Origin: Methanoculleus marisnigri JR1
GTDB lineage: Archaea > Halobacteriota > Methanomicrobia > Methanomicrobiales > Methanoculleaceae
Assembly (NCBI RefSeq): GCF_000015825.1
Contig: NC_009051.1
Coordinates: 1,110,695 to 1,174,694 of the forward strand
DNA: 64,000 bases
Direction of reading: 5' to 3'
Positions 15,994-43,045 of the stretch are shown here, one piece after another. Both the position numbers and the translations under genes were made by a program. The notes below the pieces were generated by a model. That model was not told the DNA's origin. It saw only the letters and a list, made by a program, of their open reading frames with translations, and did not search any database. Numbering within the stretch: position 1 is the stretch's first letter; the number at the start of each line of letters is the position of its first letter.

Positions 15994-18900
15994 CTATTGT
16001 AGGAGTGGGTCAAATAATTTCACTCCATCACGTAACAACTGTGGATATGAAAATGTGGGTAAAGGAATCTTTTGAAAAATCGATGTGAATATGGACTCAG
16101 ATAACATAAAAATTGAAATGACATCATATGAATTTGAATCGAGATTATATGCTGAAGCAACCTTTTTGACGTTGTTTTTTAACCACTCGTCGCGATCAAT
16201 GTGTTTACTTGCCCAAGATTTTCGTTTCTCCTTATCGATTATAAATCTGGTCATTTCATTATCAATTTCCCTCGCATTTCGACCGAAATTGATATTTTTA
16301 CACTCAATTGAGAAAATCTTTTTTTGAACGATATCTATGAGTAATACATCAATGTCTCCTAAATTGCTTGGCGAGTCTAATTTTTCATTAGGAGCTATAG
16401 GGACATTTGAATCAACGATATATTCAGTATTATCTTCAAACCATTTGTGAACTTTGCTCACGAAAAATTTTCCCTTTTCTCGTTTGATCTCGCCGAGTAA
16501 TTTTTGCATCTCTTCGGACATGCCTTGTGGATTTTTATAACGTCCAGAGTCTATCAATTCAGCCAGATAGTTAAATGAAGACTCTACATGAAGCGATCCC
16601 CAGAAGATCATTGGTTCCGTATCAGTTTCTGGACCAATGATAAGGGGTCTCCGAAGATACGACAATCTCCGGTTATATCTCCATGGGAGAATATCCTCAT
16701 TTAATGTGAAGCCTTCGGGAGCGAGATCCCATTTTTCTCTTGGGCTTAATGAGAATAGGTTGATTGCTTTTATAACGCGATCTTCAGGCCAATTCAGGGT
16801 CGAAATGATCCGTTTTTTAAATTCAGACACTGGTAACGATAACGCTGGTGAGTTCTGTTCCGCACAGATAAAATGGTCACAACTGTGAATTAAACAGATG
16901 ATGAACTGTCCAACCTCTTGAAGACTAATCCCAAATTCTGCATTGAATGCTGTATCATATCTCGAATCTATTCTAAATGCTGCTCTTTCATCTGTAGATT
17001 TATCCTGATCCGTTGAATGTAATAGAGCCGATTCGATTCCTTCTAAAGTTTTTGCACGTAAAAAAGGCGCGTCAAAGTTTGTATCACCAAGACTCTCACA
17101 CCTAATGCGGCCATTTTCCAGTAGAATAATTTTGATCTGTACAAAGTCAAAGTGGATTCTATCGCTGATGTCAGCCCAATTGATCAGATGTGATGTCAAC
17201 GCAAGTAGCTTATCTAATTCACTAATACTAATCGTTCGATCTCCCGCAGGAGGCTCAGCTGCGATGATCTCAATAAGAACTCTTGTACTGAGAGATGTTG
17301 AATTAATATTCGGAATGTCTTTGATCATTTCGGTGGCGAGCTCATCTACATCTGTATAACAAGAAATTATTTGAGGTGTAGAAAACTGAATATAGGCTTG
17401 ATAATGCAGCAAGCCTTCATAGGAGCCAATAAGGTATTGAAGAAGCGATTCATGTGAAAACTGCTTTAAAGATTCTCTTATTCGCCTTAGATACGTATCC
17501 ACGACTTTCCCACATATTTTCATTTGTTCGGCTTTATCTGAATATTCTCCAATTGAAAATTCACACCCCAAGTCCTCAACCAAATTTTCTTCCTGTGCTT
17601 CAAGATCGTGCATTTGAATCAAACGTGGTGGAGGAGTGAAGTTTTGGAAAAGGAGTCCATCTGCTTCAATTCCGGCAATTAGAATTTTCTTCTTGAGTCC
17701 AAGTGGAGCATGGAACTCAATAATAGTACGCCTTTCCGTTTTACTCAATACGTGTTTTCCACTTGATTGAATGATAAATCCATCTATCGCTTCTAACAAT
17801 GAATTCAAGATGACTCTTTCTCCGATGTTATTCGCTCTTTTAAGATATGGGACTATTGTATGGGGGATTGAAAATAGAATTGAACGCCCTTCGATGATAA
17901 AATCGCATTTAGGCGTGACATCACTCAGATCATCAAATTCACAATTTAACCAGAGATGAAAATTTTCTAATTCATATCTAATTTCAATAGGATCTGTGCC
18001 TGTACTGGATAACAATGGCTTAATGCTAGGTTTAATTTGCGAAACCCAATAGCTGATAGTGTCAGATATTAAAGTATAGAGGGCTAACTGCTCAGGAGAA
18101 TGCTCGGTTGATTGCGGTTCGATCCAGATTGCTTGATCATACCCTTCAACGAGACGGACTAATGATCTGTTTATGCGATAATATGGAGTATATATCTCAT
18201 CAGATTCATCTTCAGAGACTTTGCAGACTGTGATAAATCCTGATGGATTCCCTTTTTTGGCTGAATGAAAGTCAAACTTTTTTGTGGCTTTTATCCTCAG
18301 GTCTCGGCCAGTCCCTGCGAGAATATCAAGTAAGATTGGTTCATTTTTATCTCCTGCACTAAACGAATAATTATGTTGGATGTAGCCACTAAACGTGTCG
18401 AGAAATGACCAAGAAAATATATCATTGGATTTGGCAAAATTTGTATATGCCTCTGCAAATTTCCACAATGTAAGCGGTTCGCACTTTCTTAATTGTGAGA
18501 GCAACTCCAACTCATCGGCACATAGAGAGAGTGTTAGGTGACTTTGGTCATCAATGATAATTTTAAAATTTCGGCCAATTTTTCCGTACACTCTTAAAGT
18601 TAAGATCTCATTACAATATTCTAGCTCTCTCTTCAAATAGGCGAAAATTTGACATACTCTGCTTATAATAATCTCTTCTAGTTTGAGCGCGTTCCATTCG
18701 CCATTTATATCCTTGCTGGGGTAGTTTTTCGCATCATCACAGATTAAAATAACATATACAAGTTTATCTGTGTCAACCTGGTATACACTCTCTTCTATGA
18801 TAAGGCGCTCATCATTTATCGGTGGCAACGAAATATCCACTTCATAGAATCCGATTAATTCAAGCGACTCCTTCATGCCCATAAATACACTTTTACGGTA

Positions 18901-19827
18901 GTTTTCTGCAAGGATGTCACGGCACTTGAATTTTCCAGAGATATTCCAGATGAAATGCCTTAACGCAGCGGCCAGTGAACTTGGATGTGCTACAATTATA
19001 TCATCTTCAAACTTGACAATTGGCGTGATAAAGAGAGGATTTTTCTTGATATTCCTTTTCTTAAATGCTGGATCGCCAACAGAAATGGTAAATGGTGCAA
19101 GGAAACGTGAATCAATATTTATACGATTAAGCAGTTCTTCAAGTTCTTCATTCGAAAATATTACCGAGCACCTATATTTTGCAAGAAGATTTTCCTCTGG
19201 GACATCAATTTTTTGATGCCAGTTTGATGGACTGACCATGTACCGTGACTGATTTAATCGTTTTGCGATTTCATTACTTAGACTTAGTATAAGTCGCGAG
19301 GTCGCATAAATGGTATCCAGGAATTCTTGTGGATATTCATTTCCCTCGAGAAAAAGAGTTTTGAAAAGCATTCGTAAGACAAAAGGTTCACAATCATAAA
19401 TTCCGGGGTAAATAATATAGTTCCCGCCGTAAAATTCGATATTCTCGGTAAATAATTGCTCGGGAGGGTCTTCTAGGACTCCAACTTCACAAAAAGGATC
19501 TAAATATTCATTTAACTTATTCTTCAGACGATCTGGATCTATCTTGTCTTTCCCCCCGTGCTTTAAAGAACAGGCTAGATGTGATGCAACTTCGAGGCGT
19601 ACTGTATGGCTATGGTTTTCTGGGTGTAGATGAAGTCCTGCTAGTGTTGAAATTATTTCTTTTGGATCATATTTTCTGAATTCACTTTTTAATAATCCCA
19701 ACTCTGCTTTTCTGGGAGATGGTAGTGGTCTAAAAGATCCGATACAGCATTTTTTAAACTTTTTACCACTTCCACATGGACAAGGATCATTTCTGCCAAC
19801 TTTACTATGATTCTCAAAGATGTCCAT
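15994..19827 (-). CDS. SEC-C motif / PD-(D/E)XK nuclease-like large protein
   Basis: The 1277-residue protein is encoded by DNA much richer in A+T than its neighbours. The N-terminus has a SEC-C zinc motif (RNDPCPCGSGKKFKKCC, about residues 12-28), which is usually found at the C-terminus of proteins. The long middle is mixed alpha/beta with no domain I recognise. Near the C-terminus, GDIDVLLIDI (Asp1160) is followed by FSIECKN (Glu1175, Lys1177), the D-x14-ExK arrangement of PD-(D/E)XK nucleases, then a mostly helical tail. I infer a nucleic-acid-targeting enzyme, possibly of a defence type. There is no partner gene; it stands alone between the two halves of a duplicated junction. The name SecA would be wrong. 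Confidence 0.7.
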   Translation of the reverse strand: MDIFENHSKVGRNDPCPCGSGKKFKKCCIGSFRPLPSPRKAELGLLKSEFRKYDPKEIISTLAGLHLHPENHSHTVRLEVASHLACSLKHGGKDKIDPDRLKNKLNEYLDPFCEVGVLEDPPEQLFTENIEFYGGNYIIYPGIYDCEPFVLRMLFKTLFLEGNEYPQEFLDTIYATSRLILSLSNEIAKRLNQSRYMVSPSNWHQKIDVPEENLLAKYRCSVIFSNEELEELLNRINIDSRFLAPFTISVGDPAFKKRNIKKNPLFITPIVKFEDDIIVAHPSSLAAALRHFIWNISGKFKCRDILAENYRKSVFMGMKESLELIGFYEVDISLPPINDERLIIEESVYQVDTDKLVYVILICDDAKNYPSKDINGEWNALKLEEIIISRVCQIFAYLKRELEYCNEILTLRVYGKIGRNFKIIIDDQSHLTLSLCADELELLSQLRKCEPLTLWKFAEAYTNFAKSNDIFSWSFLDTFSGYIQHNYSFSAGDKNEPILLDILAGTGRDLRIKATKKFDFHSAKKGNPSGFITVCKVSEDESDEIYTPYYRINRSLVRLVEGYDQAIWIEPQSTEHSPEQLALYTLISDTISYWVSQIKPSIKPLLSSTGTDPIEIRYELENFHLWLNCEFDDLSDVTPKCDFIIEGRSILFSIPHTIVPYLKRANNIGERVILNSLLEAIDGFIIQSSGKHVLSKTERRTIIEFHAPLGLKKKILIAGIEADGLLFQNFTPPPRLIQMHDLEAQEENLVEDLGCEFSIGEYSDKAEQMKICGKVVDTYLRRIRESLKQFSHESLLQYLIGSYEGLLHYQAYIQFSTPQIISCYTDVDELATEMIKDIPNINSTSLSTRVLIEIIAAEPPAGDRTISISELDKLLALTSHLINWADISDRIHFDFVQIKIILLENGRIRCESLGDTNFDAPFLRAKTLEGIESALLHSTDQDKSTDERAAFRIDSRYDTAFNAEFGISLQEVGQFIICLIHSCDHFICAEQNSPALSLPVSEFKKRIISTLNWPEDRVIKAINLFSLSPREKWDLAPEGFTLNEDILPWRYNRRLSYLRRPLIIGPETDTEPMIFWGSLHVESSFNYLAELIDSGRYKNPQGMSEEMQKLLGEIKREKGKFFVSKVHKWFEDNTEYIVDSNVPIAPNEKLDSPSNLGDIDVLLIDIVQKKIFSIECKNINFGRNAREIDNEMTRFIIDKEKRKSWASKHIDRDEWLKNNVKKVASAYNLDSNSYDVISIFMLSESIFTSIFQKIPLPTFSYPQLLRDGVKLFDPLLQ

Positions 19828-33020: not shown

Positions 33021-33200
33021 GGGGGGGATTCTCCCCGAGCCTCCCGGCCGTTGCGATATGTTTCAGCCGGACGGAGCCCTGCACGAGCAGGGAGAGCGGA
33101 ACCGTGCGGGCCGAGATGTTCTCTCTTCAGGCGGCCGGCGAACTGCGTGAATAAATGGAAACCCTAATGGCTGCCTCCTTTCTATATTCCATTGATCGCC

Positions 33201-36200
33201 ATGCCCGCTCCCCCCGAAATAGTCGATCTGGTCAAGCGGTTCGACCAGTATTATGCAAAGTATACGTCACAGTCCTACAACGAGTTCCAGGTCAGAAAAG
33301 AGTTCATCGATCCTTTCTTCGAGGCGCTCGGCTGGGACGTGAACAACCGCTCGGGGCTCGATGAGCGCTACAAAGACGTGATCCACGAGGACACCGTCAG
33401 GGTGGAGAAGTCCACCAAAGCGCCGGACTACTCGTTCCGGATCGGCGGCATGCGCAAGTTCTTCGTCGAGGCGAAGAAACCCGCCGTGAATCTCAAGGAG
33501 AACCCGGAGCCAGCCTACCAGGTGCGTCGGTATGCCTGGAGCGCGAAACTGCCGGTCAGCCTGCTCACGGACTTCGAGGAGTTCATCATCTACGACTGTA
33601 CGGCGAAACCCTCACCGAAGGATAAGGCGTCGGTGAAGAGGATCGGTTACTACCGCTACACCGACTATGTCGAGAAATGGGACGAGATTGCGGCGATCTT
33701 CTCCAAGCAGGGCATCCTGACCGGGGGGTATGACGACTACGTCGATAACCTGAAACAGAAGAAGGGCGGAAAGGGCACCGCCGGCATCGACGATGCTTTC
33801 CTCGCGGAGATCGAGGGGTGGCGTGATATTCTCGCGAAGAACATCGCGCTCCGGAACAAGGATCTCTCGGTCAGGGAATTGAACGCAGCGGTCCAGAAGA
33901 CGATCGACCGGATCATCTTCCTCAGAATCTGCGAAGACCGCGGGATCGAGGAGTACGGGCAGCTGAAGAGAATCGCCGCCGGGAAAGATGTCTATGAGCA
34001 GTTGAAATTGCTCTTCCGGTATGCAGACGACCGGTACAACTCCGGGCTGTTTCACTTCTCCGGGGAAGCCGGCCGGGGAGAAGAGCCGGACAACCTGACG
34101 CTCTCCCTTGCCATCGACGACAAGGTGCTCAAGCAGATCATCAGCCACCTCTACTACCCGGACTCGCCATATGAGTTCTCGGTTTTCCCGGCGGACATCC
34201 TCGGCCAGGTCTACGAGCAGTTCCTCGGGAAGGTCATCCGCCTGACGGCCGGGCACCAGGCGAAGGTCGAGGAGAAGCCGGAGGTGAAGAAGGCGGGCGG
34301 GGTCTTCTACACGCCGACCTACATCGTAGAGTATATCGTGAAGCAGACCGTCGGGAACCTGGTCGAGGGGAAGGATCCGAAGGCGGTCGCAGGCCTCCAC
34401 GTCCTCGACCCGGCCTGCGGTTCGGGGTCGTTCCTCCTCGGCGCCTACCAGTACCTCCTCGACTGGCACCTTGCGTGGTACATGGACAACCTGGTCCCGC
34501 TGCTCGCGAGCGGGAAGAAGATGACCGATCCGGCGGTGCTGGAACTTCTGCCGGCCAGGCCTGCGCCGGTGAAGAACGGCCGCGGTAAGAAGAAGCGGGG
34601 GGACGAGTACATCCTTCCGGTCTACCAGGTGACCGATACCGACTGGCGGCTGACGACGGAGGAGAAGAAGCGGATTCTCTTAAACAACATCTACGGTGTG
34701 GACATCGACCCGCAGGCAGTGGAGGTGACGAAACTCTCGCTCCTCCTGAAGGTGCTCGAGGGCGAGAAGTCCGAGCGGATAGGCAAGCAGCTGACGATCA
34801 CCGAGGAGCGGGTGCTTCCCTCCCTCCATGAGAATATCAAGTGCGGGAACTCGCTCGTTGGTCCCGACATCTACAATGATGTGCAGATGACCCTCGACGA
34901 CGAGGATGCGATCTTCCGGATCAATGCGTTCGACTGGAACCAGGCCTTCCCGTCTATTCTGCAGGCGGGTGGGTTTGATGCGGTGATCGGGAACCCGCCG
35001 TATGTGCGCCAGGAGATCCTCGGGCGGGAGTTCAAGGACTACGCGAAAAAGCATTACGCGGTCTACCACGGCGTTGCCGACCTCTACACCTACTTTATCG
35101 AGAAGGGGGTTTCGCTCCTCCGCCCGGGCGGGCAGTTCGCCTACATCGTGGCGAACAAGTGGATGCGGGCGAACTACGGGAAACCTCTCCGGCAGTGGCT
35201 GAAAGAGCAGCGCATCGAGGAGATCATGGATTTCGGCGATCTTCCCGTGTTTGAGAGCGCAACAACCTATCCCTGCATCCTCCGGATCGGGGCCGGATCT
35301 CCCTGCGAGTGGTTCGATGCTGTGCAGGTGGAAAACCTTGATTATCCGGACCTCACCGACTACGTGAAGGCTCATGCGTATCCGGTAAACCTGACGTATC
35401 TCGATGAGGAGGGGTGGTCTCTGGCCGACGAGAAGACGCAGGCGCTTCTTCTGAAGATCAGGGCCGCCGGGGTTCCTCTGGGGACGTATGTGGATGGGAA
35501 GATCTATAGGGGTATCCTGACCGGACTGAACGAGGCTTTCGTGATCGACGAGGCGACGAGAGGGCGGTTGATCGCCGAAGACCCCCGGAGCGCGGAGGTT
35601 ATCAAGCCGTTTCTCGCTGGCCGAGATGTCAAGCGATATCAACCATTAGAGTTGAGCAAATATCTCATCTTTACGCGGCGTGGAATTAACATCGATAGTT
35701 ACCCCGCGATTGGAAGGTATCTGAAACAGTATAAAGAAAAACTCATACCCCGGCCAAGAGATTGGCCGTCAGATAAACCATGGCTGGGTAGAAAAGCAGG
35801 TTCCTATCAATGGTATGAGGTTCAGGACTCAATTGATTACTATCTGGAATTTGAAAAGCCAAAGATCATCGTTCCCGCAATAGTTCAGAGGGGGTCATAC
35901 ACGTATGATGAAAGGTCAATCTACTCCAACGATAAGACATCCATAATCCCATGCACTGACATCTATCTACTTGGCATACTCAATTCAAAAGTTGCTGACT
36001 TTGTTGTCCATCTCATCTCCTCGACGAAGCAAGGAGGCTATTACGAGTATAAACCGATGTATATCTCTCAGATCCCAATCCACCCCATCGACCCCTCCGA
36101 CCCCGCCGACGTCGCCCGCCACGACCGCATGGTCGCCCTCGTCGAGAAGATGCTCGACCTGAACAGGCGCCTCGCGGCGGCGAAGGCCCCGCATGAGAAG

Positions 36201-36311
36201 GAGGTGCTCGCCGGGATGATTGACGCGACCGACCGGGAGATCGATAGGCTGGTGTACGAGTTGTACGGGCTGACTGAGGAGGAGATCGCGGTTGTGGAGG
36301 GGGTTGTGTAG
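33201..36311 (+). CDS. Type IIG restriction-modification enzyme (Eco57I-like)
   Basis: A 1036-residue single-chain enzyme (ATG 33201; an in-frame TTG lies at 33192). The N-terminal nuclease domain has PDYSFRIGG and VEAKKP (Asp76, Glu90, Lys92: PD-x-ExK). A helical connector follows, then an N6-adenine methylase with motif I DPACGSGSF (Asp403) and motif IV NPPY (Asn598-Tyr601). The last about 300 residues are a TaqI-like specificity domain. Between about 35640 and 36065 the DNA becomes clearly AT-richer, suggesting an exchanged recognition region. It should methylate and cut one target sequence. A piece of its 3' end is repeated at 38840-39031. Confidence 0.92.
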   Translation: MPAPPEIVDLVKRFDQYYAKYTSQSYNEFQVRKEFIDPFFEALGWDVNNRSGLDERYKDVIHEDTVRVEKSTKAPDYSFRIGGMRKFFVEAKKPAVNLKENPEPAYQVRRYAWSAKLPVSLLTDFEEFIIYDCTAKPSPKDKASVKRIGYYRYTDYVEKWDEIAAIFSKQGILTGGYDDYVDNLKQKKGGKGTAGIDDAFLAEIEGWRDILAKNIALRNKDLSVRELNAAVQKTIDRIIFLRICEDRGIEEYGQLKRIAAGKDVYEQLKLLFRYADDRYNSGLFHFSGEAGRGEEPDNLTLSLAIDDKVLKQIISHLYYPDSPYEFSVFPADILGQVYEQFLGKVIRLTAGHQAKVEEKPEVKKAGGVFYTPTYIVEYIVKQTVGNLVEGKDPKAVAGLHVLDPACGSGSFLLGAYQYLLDWHLAWYMDNLVPLLASGKKMTDPAVLELLPARPAPVKNGRGKKKRGDEYILPVYQVTDTDWRLTTEEKKRILLNNIYGVDIDPQAVEVTKLSLLLKVLEGEKSERIGKQLTITEERVLPSLHENIKCGNSLVGPDIYNDVQMTLDDEDAIFRINAFDWNQAFPSILQAGGFDAVIGNPPYVRQEILGREFKDYAKKHYAVYHGVADLYTYFIEKGVSLLRPGGQFAYIVANKWMRANYGKPLRQWLKEQRIEEIMDFGDLPVFESATTYPCILRIGAGSPCEWFDAVQVENLDYPDLTDYVKAHAYPVNLTYLDEEGWSLADEKTQALLLKIRAAGVPLGTYVDGKIYRGILTGLNEAFVIDEATRGRLIAEDPRSAEVIKPFLAGRDVKRYQPLELSKYLIFTRRGINIDSYPAIGRYLKQYKEKLIPRPRDWPSDKPWLGRKAGSYQWYEVQDSIDYYLEFEKPKIIVPAIVQRGSYTYDERSIYSNDKTSIIPCTDIYLLGILNSKVADFVVHLISSTKQGGYYEYKPMYISQIPIHPIDPSDPADVARHDRMVALVEKMLDLNRRLAAAKAPHEKEVLAGMIDATDREIDRLVYELYGLTEEEIAVVEGVV

Positions 36312-37339: not shown

Positions 37340-37460
37340 CAAAACAGCGTAAGAACTAATCTTGCGAGGAACTGACCCTCCCTCCGCTTGCGGTGTCTGC
37401 ATGGGAGTGAAAAGCTCTTAGTTTTCCCTGACGGTAAAGGTGATCCATGGAGTGGGGGCA

Positions 37461-37646
37461 ATGCCGGTAGAAGTCGACGGAAGACTGATCGACGACACGA
37501 CAATCCAGCTCGACCGACCCCTGAAACCCGGGGAAGAGCGAGTGGTGGTCAGGTTGAGGAAACACCCTAAAAAAACGACAAAACTTCATGCTCCTGAAGA
37601 ATACGTCCTGAAACTGGCCGAGAAAGACCTTGAAGAGCTGTACTGA
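37461..37646 (+). CDS. Antitoxin-like protein, orphan copy
   Basis: The 61 residues (MPVEVDGRLIDDTTIQLDRP and on, ending LKLAEKDLEELY) are nearly identical to the product of 39193-39378, which overlaps a PIN toxin gene. Here the similarity stops exactly at the stop codon and no PIN gene follows; a nucleotidyltransferase gene begins 25 bases later. The N-terminal half is beta-rich and the C-terminal half helical and charged, as in many small antitoxins. It may neutralise the PIN toxin encoded 1.7 kb away, or be a relic. Confidence 0.6.
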   Translation: MPVEVDGRLIDDTTIQLDRPLKPGEERVVVRLRKHPKKTTKLHAPEEYVLKLAEKDLEELY

Positions 37647-39031: not shown

Positions 39032-39192
39032 TGCAGGAGCCAGTCCTCCTGCATGAGGAAGCTGGCGCAGGGCTTCACCACGGTCGCCACGCATCCCATC
39101 CATCACCCGTACCGGCCGCATCAATCCCCGCACACAGGAGCGAAGAACCTTTAATTTTCCCGGCGGCAATAGTGATCCATGGAGTGGGGACA

Positions 39193-39378
39193 ATGCCGGT
39201 AGAAGTCGACGGAAGACTGATCGACGACACGACAATCCAGCTCGACCGACCCCTGAAACCCGGGGAAGAGCGAGTGGTAGTCAGGTTGAGGAAACACCCT
39301 AAAAAAATGACAAAACTCTATGCTCCTGAAGAATACATCCTGAAACTGGCCGAGAAAGACCTTGAAGAGCTGTACTGA
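39193..39378 (+). CDS. Antitoxin-like protein paired with PIN toxin
   Basis: A 61-residue twin of the protein at 37461-37646, with a few substitutions (KKMTKLYAPEEYI against KKTTKLHAPEEYV). Its stop overlaps the PIN gene start by one base (TGATG), the usual arrangement for translationally coupled toxin-antitoxin pairs. I do not recognise a named antitoxin family; the antitoxin role is inferred from this coupling. A TTTAATTTT stretch near 39149-39157 is a possible promoter. Confidence 0.7.
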   Translation: MPVEVDGRLIDDTTIQLDRPLKPGEERVVVRLRKHPKKMTKLYAPEEYILKLAEKDLEELY

Positions 39379-40042: not shown

Positions 40043-40921
40043 TTATTCGACGTTCCCCTCAAGCAGACCGCTCACACAGGCAATGTACTTCCCGGCATCG
40101 GTGATGTGAACAGAAAATCGCCTGCCGGTCCAGATGCGCGTGATGTAGCCTGTGGCTTCCAGTTTATGCAGGTATTTTCGGTTCGTCCTGTTGAGGAGTT
40201 CCCGGTTCTTCGGCCCTGAACTGTATTCGCCAGGTTTGTTCCTCTTTTCCGGCGGCAATTCGCCGTACCCTTCAAATCCTTTCTTGTGGCAAAAGTCGAA
40301 GAGACCCTCGCTGGTCATCCCCTGCCCCCGCCGGTAGAGTTCGCACAGCAGCAACTGGCACTCGGCATCCGGCATCATGATGGAGAAGTTGTACAGCGGT
40401 TCAACCCGCCCGGTCTCCACGATACTCAGACCGTGGTTCACCTCGAGCGCGGCATCACCACCCGTTGCATAGCGATCCGCATGCACGTAGTACGCCGTAA
40501 CCCCGTGCACCATCGCCGCCATGGTGACGGCCACCGACGTCATCCTGCCGCAGGCCGACATATTGATCAGGACGTCGTTCCCCTGCCGCTTCTCTCTCAC
40601 GATCAGGGAGGAGACGACCCGGAGCACATCAAGGATGTCGAACATATTGCAGTAGGTGACCTCGGGGTGGACACCCGCCGCCAGCAGCCCCTCACAGACC
40701 CTCTTCGTGTAGTGCCGCTGCTTCTCCAGCATCTGCTCGTCCAGATCGGCGTTGTCCGGAACCACGATGACGTATGCACGCTCGGCCCGGTATGTATTGA
40801 ACGGCTTTACGGCCCGGTCGATCTCGTGGCCGAGCGGGATCAGGTGAACCCGCTCGTTCAGGCCATCGGCCCTGGCAGGCTGAATGGGATCAAGAGTTTT
40901 CACAATATTCACAATAGTCAC
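40043..40921 (-). CDS. CARF-like domain / winged-helix regulator (HFX_2341, DUF6293 type)
   Basis: The 292 residues start at GTG 40921. The N-terminal about 160 residues form a Rossmann-like CARF-type domain: RVHLIPLGHEIDRAVKPF, AYVIVVPDN and the ligand-binding loop NMSACGRMTSVAVTMAAM. A C-terminal region with helix-turn-helix character (LCELYRRGQGMTSEGLFDF and TNRKYLHKLEATGYITR) should bind DNA. CARF domains sense cyclic oligoadenylates or related nucleotides, mostly in type III CRISPR systems such as Csa3. No CRISPR array or cas gene is present here. Tandem TATTGTGA units overlap the start region and may be its operator. Confidence 0.72.
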   Translation of the reverse strand: MTIVNIVKTLDPIQPARADGLNERVHLIPLGHEIDRAVKPFNTYRAERAYVIVVPDNADLDEQMLEKQRHYTKRVCEGLLAAGVHPEVTYCNMFDILDVLRVVSSLIVREKRQGNDVLINMSACGRMTSVAVTMAAMVHGVTAYYVHADRYATGGDAALEVNHGLSIVETGRVEPLYNFSIMMPDAECQLLLCELYRRGQGMTSEGLFDFCHKKGFEGYGELPPEKRNKPGEYSSGPKNRELLNRTNRKYLHKLEATGYITRIWTGRRFSVHITDAGKYIACVSGLLEGNVE

Positions 40922-41004
40922 GTGAATTTTTTAATGGTTTCCCTGTGCGTATACAACAATGGGACAGGGCGATGGGGGAGCCCTGCTCGCACGAGGGATC
41001 AGAA

Positions 41005-41733
41005 ATGAATGACCAGACACTTAAACCATCGATAAAAAACCGGATCAGCGACCTGATCGCGACCTGCGATTTTGCAGAACTCTACCGCAAGTATGCATGG
41101 AAGCGGGATGTGTGGCAGAATGGATTCCCCGACATCTGCCGGCTTGAGCGTGGGACCGGTGACGCCGCAAGGGCCGGAACGCTCTCTGAGGAACACCTGA
41201 AAGCGATCGCGCGGTGGGGCGGGCTGCCGGGCATCGAGCGGATCCGGGCGCTTGCTCCGATCCGGATCGCCCTCTTTGAGGACGGAAAGGTTGCCCGATG
41301 GGTACGGGAGAACCCGGAGAACGCCATTCGTGTACTTGGCGACCAGATCCGGGGGTTTGGCCCCACCTATACCAGCAACCTCCTGCGGTTCGCAGCGCCG
41401 GAACTTTTCGGAGCGATCGACACCCGGATCGTCCGGGCCTTCGGTGCGGGGGACACCGGCCACCTGCACCTCCTTGACCTGATCGCGACACCCGTTGATG
41501 GGCGCTGGGCGATCCTCTCCGGCCAACAGGGCTGGCCGGGAGAATACGGCACGTGGACCGCCATCCTGTCCTACACAGCAGCAGAGCTCAATGCAGCAGG
41601 CCAACCGTGCCCGCACCCGGAGGCGTTCATCAGTGCAGGTCTTCGCGAGCGCGGGATCTGGCTGGACGCCGATGTGGAGATGGCATTCTTTAATTATGCC
41701 TCGGGAAAAATCCAGAACATAAGGAGGGATTGA
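41005..41733 (+). CDS. HhH-GPD DNA glycosylase-like protein
   Basis: The 242 residues begin at ATG 41005. The middle has a helix-hairpin-helix pattern (QIRGFGPTYTSNLLRFAAPE) followed by AIDTRIVRAFG, which aligns with the HhH plus catalytic-Asp motif of base excision glycosylases (compare AVDTHVFRV). No Fe-S cluster cysteines are visible, and the rest (ILSGQQGWPGEYGTWTAIL) is unfamiliar. It could remove damaged or modified bases, or use the fold only to bind DNA. It is divergent from the CARF gene and one base ahead of the TPR/cold-shock gene, with which it forms an operon. Confidence 0.55.
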   Translation: MNDQTLKPSIKNRISDLIATCDFAELYRKYAWKRDVWQNGFPDICRLERGTGDAARAGTLSEEHLKAIARWGGLPGIERIRALAPIRIALFEDGKVARWVRENPENAIRVLGDQIRGFGPTYTSNLLRFAAPELFGAIDTRIVRAFGAGDTGHLHLLDLIATPVDGRWAILSGQQGWPGEYGTWTAILSYTAAELNAAGQPCPHPEAFISAGLRERGIWLDADVEMAFFNYASGKIQNIRRD

Positions 41734-41734
41734 A

Positions 41735-43045
41735 ATGGACACCCCTGAAGACCGCTCACGGCAAGCGAACGAGCTGAGGAAGAGCGGGAGATGCAAAGAT
41801 GCTCTGGAGATCTATCGTGATCTCTGGGACGGTCAGTATTACAACGAATATACTGCTGCGGGCCTGTTGCACTGTCTCCGGAAACTGCACCGCCTCGACG
41901 AGGCGATGACCTTCGCCGACGATATCGCCGCGCGTTACCCCGATCACAACTGGGTAAACCTGGAGGTCGCGTGGGCATACGCCGACTATGTCAAGGGAAT
42001 GGCAGAGAACGGGGCGTCTGTCCCGGTGCTCCATGCCTGCGGAGAGAAGGCTCTCTCCAGAAACCCACCACCACAGGCGGTGAGCCATATCGCCTTCGCC
42101 ATCATGAGACCGGCAAAAGATGCCAAAGACTGGCATACGCTGGCGGCATGGACGTCGCGGGTCGATCCGTTGCTGCTCAGCCCAACGGGGATGAAGCTCC
42201 CCGACGGAAAAGAAGGCTGGAGTTACCTTGCCCGCTGGTATCACTACCGGAACATGGGGCTCATCGGAACGGGGCGCGCGCAAGACGCCCTTCCTTTTTG
42301 CCGTGAAGCGATTGAGAGGTTCCCCAATCAGTACAAATTCTTTGCATACGATCTCGCCAGGGCATATGCAGGCATCGGCGAGTACGAAAAGGCGGCAGAG
42401 ACGTTTGACGAACTCTGCCGGAATGTCCGGCCGGACTTCTACCACCTCTTCGAGTATGGGAAGGTCGTCCACCAGCTCGGCCGTCCGGAAGAGGCGCTGA
42501 CACTGATGACCCGGGCCGCGAAGGCAGGGCAGCGCCCGGAGTTCATGGTCGGATACTTTATGGAGATGGGTGACATCTTCAAGCAGGTCGGTCGCCTGGA
42601 CGCGGCCCGCGACCACTATACGCTGGTGACAGCCCTGCGGATGCGGATGTCATGGTCCATTCCTCCTGAATTGCAGCAGCGCCTCGATGAGAACGCCATC
42701 TCTTCGATCGAGGACTCCGTTGAGGAACTCACCTATCGGTGCAGCCGCCACTGGAGCAGCTGCGAAACCGGGCAGAGTCCCCTGACGGCGCAGCATGAGC
42801 GGGAAAAGCCGCTTGCGGAGGGGGTAGTTGGCAGGATCTTTCTCGGGCATCCGGACCGCGAGTACTTCTTCATCAACCCGCCGGACGCTGACGGATACAT
42901 CGGGTTCAAGAAAGAGCTCACCTGGGCACCGGAGGACCGGAGCAAGGTTGTATTCGACGTTGTTCCGTCGTTTAACCGGAAGAAGAACGAGTGGGCTGCA
43001 AAGGCAGTGAACGTCCGGCCGAAGGACGATACTGGAGCACGATAG
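41735..43045 (+). CDS. TPR protein with C-terminal cold-shock-like domain
   Basis: The 436 residues start at ATG 41735 after AGGAGGG (41722-41728). Residues 1-310 are tetratricopeptide-like helical pairs (for example GRCKDALEIYRDLWDGQYYN and YEKAAETFDELCRNV). The C-terminal about 75 residues (GVVGRIFLGHPDREYFFINP and DADGYIGFKKEL, then SKVVFDVVPSFNRKKNEWAA) follow the spacing of a cold-shock/OB-fold RNA-binding domain. It probably scaffolds partner proteins while binding single-stranded nucleic acid. The fusion is unusual and I know no named family. It lies with the HhH-GPD-like gene in one operon. Confidence 0.62.
   Translation: MDTPEDRSRQANELRKSGRCKDALEIYRDLWDGQYYNEYTAAGLLHCLRKLHRLDEAMTFADDIAARYPDHNWVNLEVAWAYADYVKGMAENGASVPVLHACGEKALSRNPPPQAVSHIAFAIMRPAKDAKDWHTLAAWTSRVDPLLLSPTGMKLPDGKEGWSYLARWYHYRNMGLIGTGRAQDALPFCREAIERFPNQYKFFAYDLARAYAGIGEYEKAAETFDELCRNVRPDFYHLFEYGKVVHQLGRPEEALTLMTRAAKAGQRPEFMVGYFMEMGDIFKQVGRLDAARDHYTLVTALRMRMSWSIPPELQQRLDENAISSIEDSVEELTYRCSRHWSSCETGQSPLTAQHEREKPLAEGVVGRIFLGHPDREYFFINPPDADGYIGFKKELTWAPEDRSKVVFDVVPSFNRKKNEWAAKAVNVRPKDDTGAR

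Follow-up and report, generated by a model that had tools for sequence, protein, structure and literature searches.

A CARF-type regulator facing an HhH-like operon across a phased putative operator in Methanoculleus marisnigri: a candidate autoregulated cassette

CARF domains sense nucleotide alarm signals, and the locus described here raises the question of what a regulator carrying such a domain controls when it stands back to back with genes for predicted nucleic-acid-binding proteins. CARF regulators of the HFX_2341_N/DUF6293_C family are common in archaea, and their targets, operators, and ligands are mostly unknown; with one regulator, one predicted operator, and one dedicated operon, the present cassette offers a compact test case. 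It lies in a stretch of 64,000 nucleotides of the Methanoculleus marisnigri JR1 genome (2,478,101 bases; code G000), a stretch referred to here as the window. A first-pass annotation had described a CARF regulator divergent from an HhH-GPD-like gene and a TPR/cold-shock fusion, and had proposed a nucleotide-triggered stress or defense system. The three open reading frames and their divergent arrangement, with the outermost starts 83 bases apart (40922-41004), were confirmed (Table 1); a single base separates the HhH stop codon from the TPR gene. All three were chosen by a codon-usage gene model, and the long open reading frames running opposite to them appear to be shadow ORFs.

Table 1. Features of the cassette, in window positions
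Feature	Position	Strand	Basis
CARF + winged-helix regulator, HFX_2341_N/DUF6293_C type	40043..40921	(-)	Pfam, PADLOC, Foldseek/VIA, gene model
Putative operator, three phased 9-bp units TTCACAATA TTCACAATA GTCACGTGA	40899..40925	.	Repeat search, conservation, periodicity
AT-rich ATTAAAAAAT, candidate CARF TATA box, about 27 bp upstream of GTG 40903	40926..40935	(-)	Sequence; similar element in most related loci
TATACA, possible TATA box for the HhH operon; the TCACGTGA palindrome lies 24 bp upstream	40950..40955	(+)	Role inferred
HhH-like protein, 242 aa	41005..41733	(+)	Conserved motifs; weak OGG-like similarity
TPR protein, 436 aa, cold-shock-like (OB) C-terminus	41735..43045	(+)	Pfam, PADLOC

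The identity of the regulator as a CARF plus winged-helix protein was borne out by PF19810 (1e-34), PF22665 (1.3e-18), and the PADLOC model CARF3 (7e-120); HFX_2341_N and DUF6293_C score 120 and 67.7 bits against Pfam gathering cut-offs of 30 and 27. The Pfam signals for Csa3_N and Cas_APE2256 are weak, and by the cut-offs the protein is neither a Csa3 (TIGR01884 of NCBIfam, 16.7 versus 60.2 bits; Csa3_N of Pfam, 19 versus 27 bits) nor an equivalog of HFX_2341 (NF051475 of NCBIfam, 12.9 bits versus a curated 500). An AlphaFold model built from a shallow alignment is of low confidence (pLDDT 46); the top 32 Foldseek rows obtained with it are all CARF-type entries, three of them at E < 0.001, the core matching the ring nuclease Sis0811, Cam1, Csm6, Can2, and Csa3, with VIA Z values of up to 10. 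Profiles and the weak fold model agree on a Rossmann-like CARF fold, and the CARF identity is solid. Three GTG codons could start the frame (40921, 40912, and 40903), the last being the likely one and the other two alternatives. The CARF family of the regulator is present in 164 of 295 genomes of the phylum.

For the second gene, HhH-GPD is the weakest label of the three. The 242-aa protein contains a hairpin, GFGPTYTSNLLRF, with the G-x-G at G117-x-G119, followed by a conserved Asp139 (AIDTR) in the catalytic place, and this Asp is kept in 29 of 30 members; however, profile support is weak, PF21790 (OGG-like) reaching E=0.042 and 14 bits against a Pfam gathering cut-off of 27. The same profile gives 20.2 bits (5.9e-4 per genome), also below the cut-off, with the module member of genome G120. 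PF00730 is absent from the Pfam matches of the 242-aa protein, profile and sequence searches of NCBIfam, PADLOC, and the PDB returned nothing for it, and a PHROGs search yielded nothing of note. Strongly conserved over the 30 members are G-F-G-P-T-Y-x-S-K-L-L-R-F ... F-G-A-I-D-T-R and a C-terminal block, CPHP ... R ... GxW ... ADVEMA. The similarity behind the DNA-base-acting fold suggested earlier is weak: the hairpin and Asp resemble those of HhH glycosylases, but the catalytic Lys of the bifunctional enzymes, two residues past the second hairpin Gly, is missing (Thr, Ala, or Val is found there). Judged by these residues, the protein, if a glycosylase at all, would be of the monofunctional sort, and it may be merely a DNA-binding HhH protein. 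Its AlphaFold model has a pLDDT of 42, too low for use. Comparison of the family profile with archaeal Nth gave no signal, and with an OGG-like set a global probability of 67% and a local one of 24%, which is a hint only; no relatives of the family were found in viral contigs. In one Methanoculleus genome (G009, L007:8001-8688) the HhH gene is apparently broken, being in two frames with residues 149-159 missing, while the CARF and TPR-cold-shock genes are intact.

The third gene is solid as a TPR protein, and support for its cold-shock-like C-terminus comes from the PADLOC model PDLC01170 ("TPR fused to cold shock-like domain"; 1.9e-14), which covers residues 1-428 of the protein and positions 1-366 of the 368 of the model; a distant homolog from another family matches the model better (1.4e-22). 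Sequence searches of solved structures with the HhH protein, the OB protein discussed below, and the cold-shock tail returned nothing useful, leaving the PADLOC model and the pattern of residues as the basis of the cold-shock call. As part of a three-family set the TPR-cold-shock gene recurs elsewhere, yet it does not belong to a fixed core but is one of several interchangeable partners. In eight Methanoculleus loci a 113-125 aa "MRTNLQ" OB-like gene is placed before HhH; Pfam and PADLOC are silent on the 125-aa protein, and "OB" is our own reading of its residues. A third partner is a protein of 650-760 aa, the N-terminus of which has a sub-threshold DUF7255 match in L029 and L032 and which contains a stretch, VEFDESQHF, that looks like a DUF559-type nuclease motif. 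Directly after the CARF/OB/HhH/nuclease set of L029 lies a gene for a DpdF-like helicase whose N-terminus is DUF559-like (L029:9456-13532). A gene of 134-135 aa with no profile match follows the TPR-cold-shock gene at several loci (L041:11553-11957, L040:8378-8782, L003:10069-10473, and L005:10078-10485) and is uncalled in the window.

HhH genes occur in 15 of 40 genomes searched from the family, 27 of 232 from the order, and 14 of 393 from the phylum. Examination of the neighborhood, as the first-pass annotation had proposed, revealed the divergent CARF/HhH arrangement at 17 loci within Methanoculleus and, beyond the genus, in four genomes. Within Methanoculleus, nine loci carry the TPR-cold-shock gene (G000, G002, G006, G009, G013, G017, G018, G030, and G033); those outside are L085, again with TPR-cold-shock, L087 and L088 with the OB-like gene, and L090. 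L085, from another family, has the same three genes, with CARF 43% and HhH 49% identical. Partial sets are found as well: L140 has CARF/OB and no HhH, L084 has OB/HhH/nuclease and no CARF, and L141 has OB together with the same nuclease family as L084; about ten loci have an HhH gene and lack CARF, and at least four Methanoculleus loci show the reverse, a CARF gene with no HhH. Because the partners swap between loci, the core is better described as a CARF regulator facing a nucleic-acid-binding operon, with TPR-cold-shock as one option. The distance matrices of CARF and HhH correlate with r=0.91 over 14 linked pairs, a value as high being reached in none of 5000 Mantel permutations; such a correlation can arise from interaction but equally from shared descent of the cassette. 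Across Methanoculleus genomes the unit is intact while its flanks differ, an antiporter/hydrogenase-type operon adjoining it in five genomes and integrase-, Orc1/Cdc6-, or ArdC-like genes elsewhere (names read from the sequences, without profile matches). Patchy occurrence, a stable unit, and changing flanks are read here as the marks of a probably mobile cassette. In L005 a 720-aa protein (L005:4863-7025; PADLOC candidate PDC-M57B, 3.7e-77) is encoded beside the CARF gene, and a second, solo HhH copy lies beyond.

The tandem repeats that had been placed in the 83-base gap are real, but their position is the 5′ end of the CARF frame. Two TTCACAATA units (TATTGTGA on the opposite strand) occupy 40899-40916, and the last unit of the putative operator, GTCACGTGA, contains the palindrome TCACGTGA; the element overlaps the CARF start codons. 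Since it spans the GTG starts, a gel shift with the stretch at 40.92-41.0 kb, as earlier suggested, would miss most of it. The 9-bp periodicity exceeds chance, with a P of about 0.0005 by shuffling; because the shuffles were of single nucleotides only and the loci are related, P-values are to be taken as indicative. Among periods of 5 to 15, 9 is best in 23 of 24 CARF loci, including clades with another repeat sequence: the unit is TCACAATAT in most clades, TTAATGTTA in L087, GATGTTATG in L140, and CTAATGACG-like in CARF genes without HhH. A fixed period with a shifting sequence is as expected of an operator tracking its own binding protein. A second Methanoculleus CARF clade without HhH (L148-L151) has 9-bp repeats of another sequence at the start. 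The repeat as a mark of every HFX_2341-family gene was rejected, 9 being best in 12 of 30 loci of the family search. In a genome-wide scan, run as one pattern search, the 26-base element was unique in the 2.48-Mb genome with up to 3 mismatches allowed. An AT-rich, ATTAA-type element similar to the candidate CARF TATA box is present on the CARF side in most related loci, and the distance from the palindrome to TATACA or a close variant is 23-24 bp in nine loci from three clades.

What the analysis shows is the gene content, the conserved divergence, the co-divergence, and the conservation and geometry of the operator; direct binding, autoregulation, a ligand, a direction of control, and a role in defense or repair are inferred. 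On balance, we lean towards an autoregulated, mobile cassette of two units, in which a CARF switch would drive an accessory operon for an HhH-like protein and a nucleic-acid-binding partner. Dimers of the CARF-winged-helix protein would bind the three phased 9-bp half-sites, which overlap the promoter and start codon of the CARF gene, and occupancy would limit synthesis of the regulator itself; from the operator to the TATA-like box of the operon on the other side, downstream, is 23-24 bp, an activator-like distance. Binding of a small, nucleotide-type ligand by the CARF domain may then change occupancy and switch the operon on. The operon would supply an HhH-like DNA-binding, possibly base-recognizing, protein, and alongside it a partner that binds single strands or RNA (in this genome TPR-cold-shock, at other loci the small OB-like protein or the predicted nuclease); the products might act on nucleic acid that is foreign or damaged. 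The earlier proposal of a nucleotide-triggered module is partly supported: the three families co-occur outside this strain, and the regulator model is of CARF type. A defense or stress function is plausible as a hypothesis.

A tentative alternative, less probable but deserving serious attention, is that the CARF regulator has a general role, its autoregulation being incidental, and that the HhH/OB/TPR operon is a DNA-repair or recombination set on integrated elements rather than a defense system. HFX_2341 of Haloferax mediterranei, a DUF6293 CARF-wHTH protein with the same two Pfam domains, is a vertically inherited global repressor for which no partner operon is described, and its homologs occur in genomes without CRISPR (PMC11434293); here, in contrast, a partner operon is present, and the 9-bp repeat is missing from many haloarchaeal members of the family. 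MM_0565 of Methanosarcina mazei, likewise a methanogen CARF-wHTH protein, acts beyond its own CRISPR locus, and no distinct binding motif was found for it (PMC7465815), whereas a phased 9-bp repeat is proposed here. Both proteins thus act outside CRISPR with no operator defined, and show that CARF relatives can regulate globally without a local defense partner (PMC11434293, PMC7465815). The OGG-like similarity also points toward repair, as do the Orc1/Cdc6- and integrase-like genes (so named from their sequences) adjoining some loci toward integrated elements. However, the full 26-base operator is single in the genome even at 3 mismatches, a hint that the target is local; CARF and HhH co-diverge, and the neighbors include the DUF559-like predicted nuclease and the DpdF-like helicase.

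An unlikely, more specific possibility is nucleotide-signaled immunity independent of CRISPR, in which the CARF switch would turn on an HhH protein recognizing base modification or damage in the DNA of invaders, aided by interchangeable single-strand-binding or nuclease partners. The antiviral DNA glycosylases Brig1 and Brig3 share the idea of a base-recognizing defense protein in a small operon; they belong, however, to the uracil-DNA glycosylase superfamily and have no CARF regulator described alongside (PMC11078745, PMC13160076), while the cassette protein appears HhH-like at best. In the literature searched, no paper on this gene set was found, nor a described defense system containing it; earlier mention in surveys of the CARF superfamily is possible.

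That the cassette is an ancillary module split off from type III CRISPR, sensing cyclic oligoadenylate made by Cas10, is quite improbable. Csa3 structures with bound cA4 exist, and Csa3a and Csa3b of type I-A CRISPR share the CARF-wHTH architecture with the regulator and match it in fold (2wte, 6w11, 6wxq), although the Csa3 models stay below cut-off here. The CARF fold is closest to ring nucleases, Cam1, Csm6, and Csa3, and the TPR-cold-shock protein matches a model of the PADLOC defense library, with a Sulfolobus acidocaldarius match among the controls. Against this, and in line with the earlier remark that CRISPR is absent, the window has no CRISPR array, and a genome-wide search for Cas10 found no match to its palm domain (PF22335) in G000. 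Cas10 was found in 2 of 35 Methanoculleus genomes, compared with 15 for HhH; since this genome lacks it, as do 33 of the 35, type III CRISPR in the same cell is an unlikely source of the ligand. Were the ligand a cyclic nucleotide, Cas10-free cells would have to contain an unrecognized producer. That the genes are chance neighbors, as the solo HhH genes of many genomes might suggest, is refuted by the same divergent order at 21 loci in several genera with changing flanks, and by common operator geometry and mirrored divergence.

Elsewhere in the window, 37398-37646 and 39147-39378 form a near-identical duplicate in which the same 61-aa antitoxin-like protein is encoded twice, the former copy preceding a nucleotidyltransferase-like gene and the latter a PIN-like gene of 169 aa. 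A Type IIG restriction-methyltransferase (PADLOC, 9.7e-222) is noted at 33192-36311, and after it comes an orphan gene of 321 aa that has no profile matches; a 1277-aa ORF of atypical codon usage at 15994-19827 (-) has a SEC-C motif as its sole profile match.
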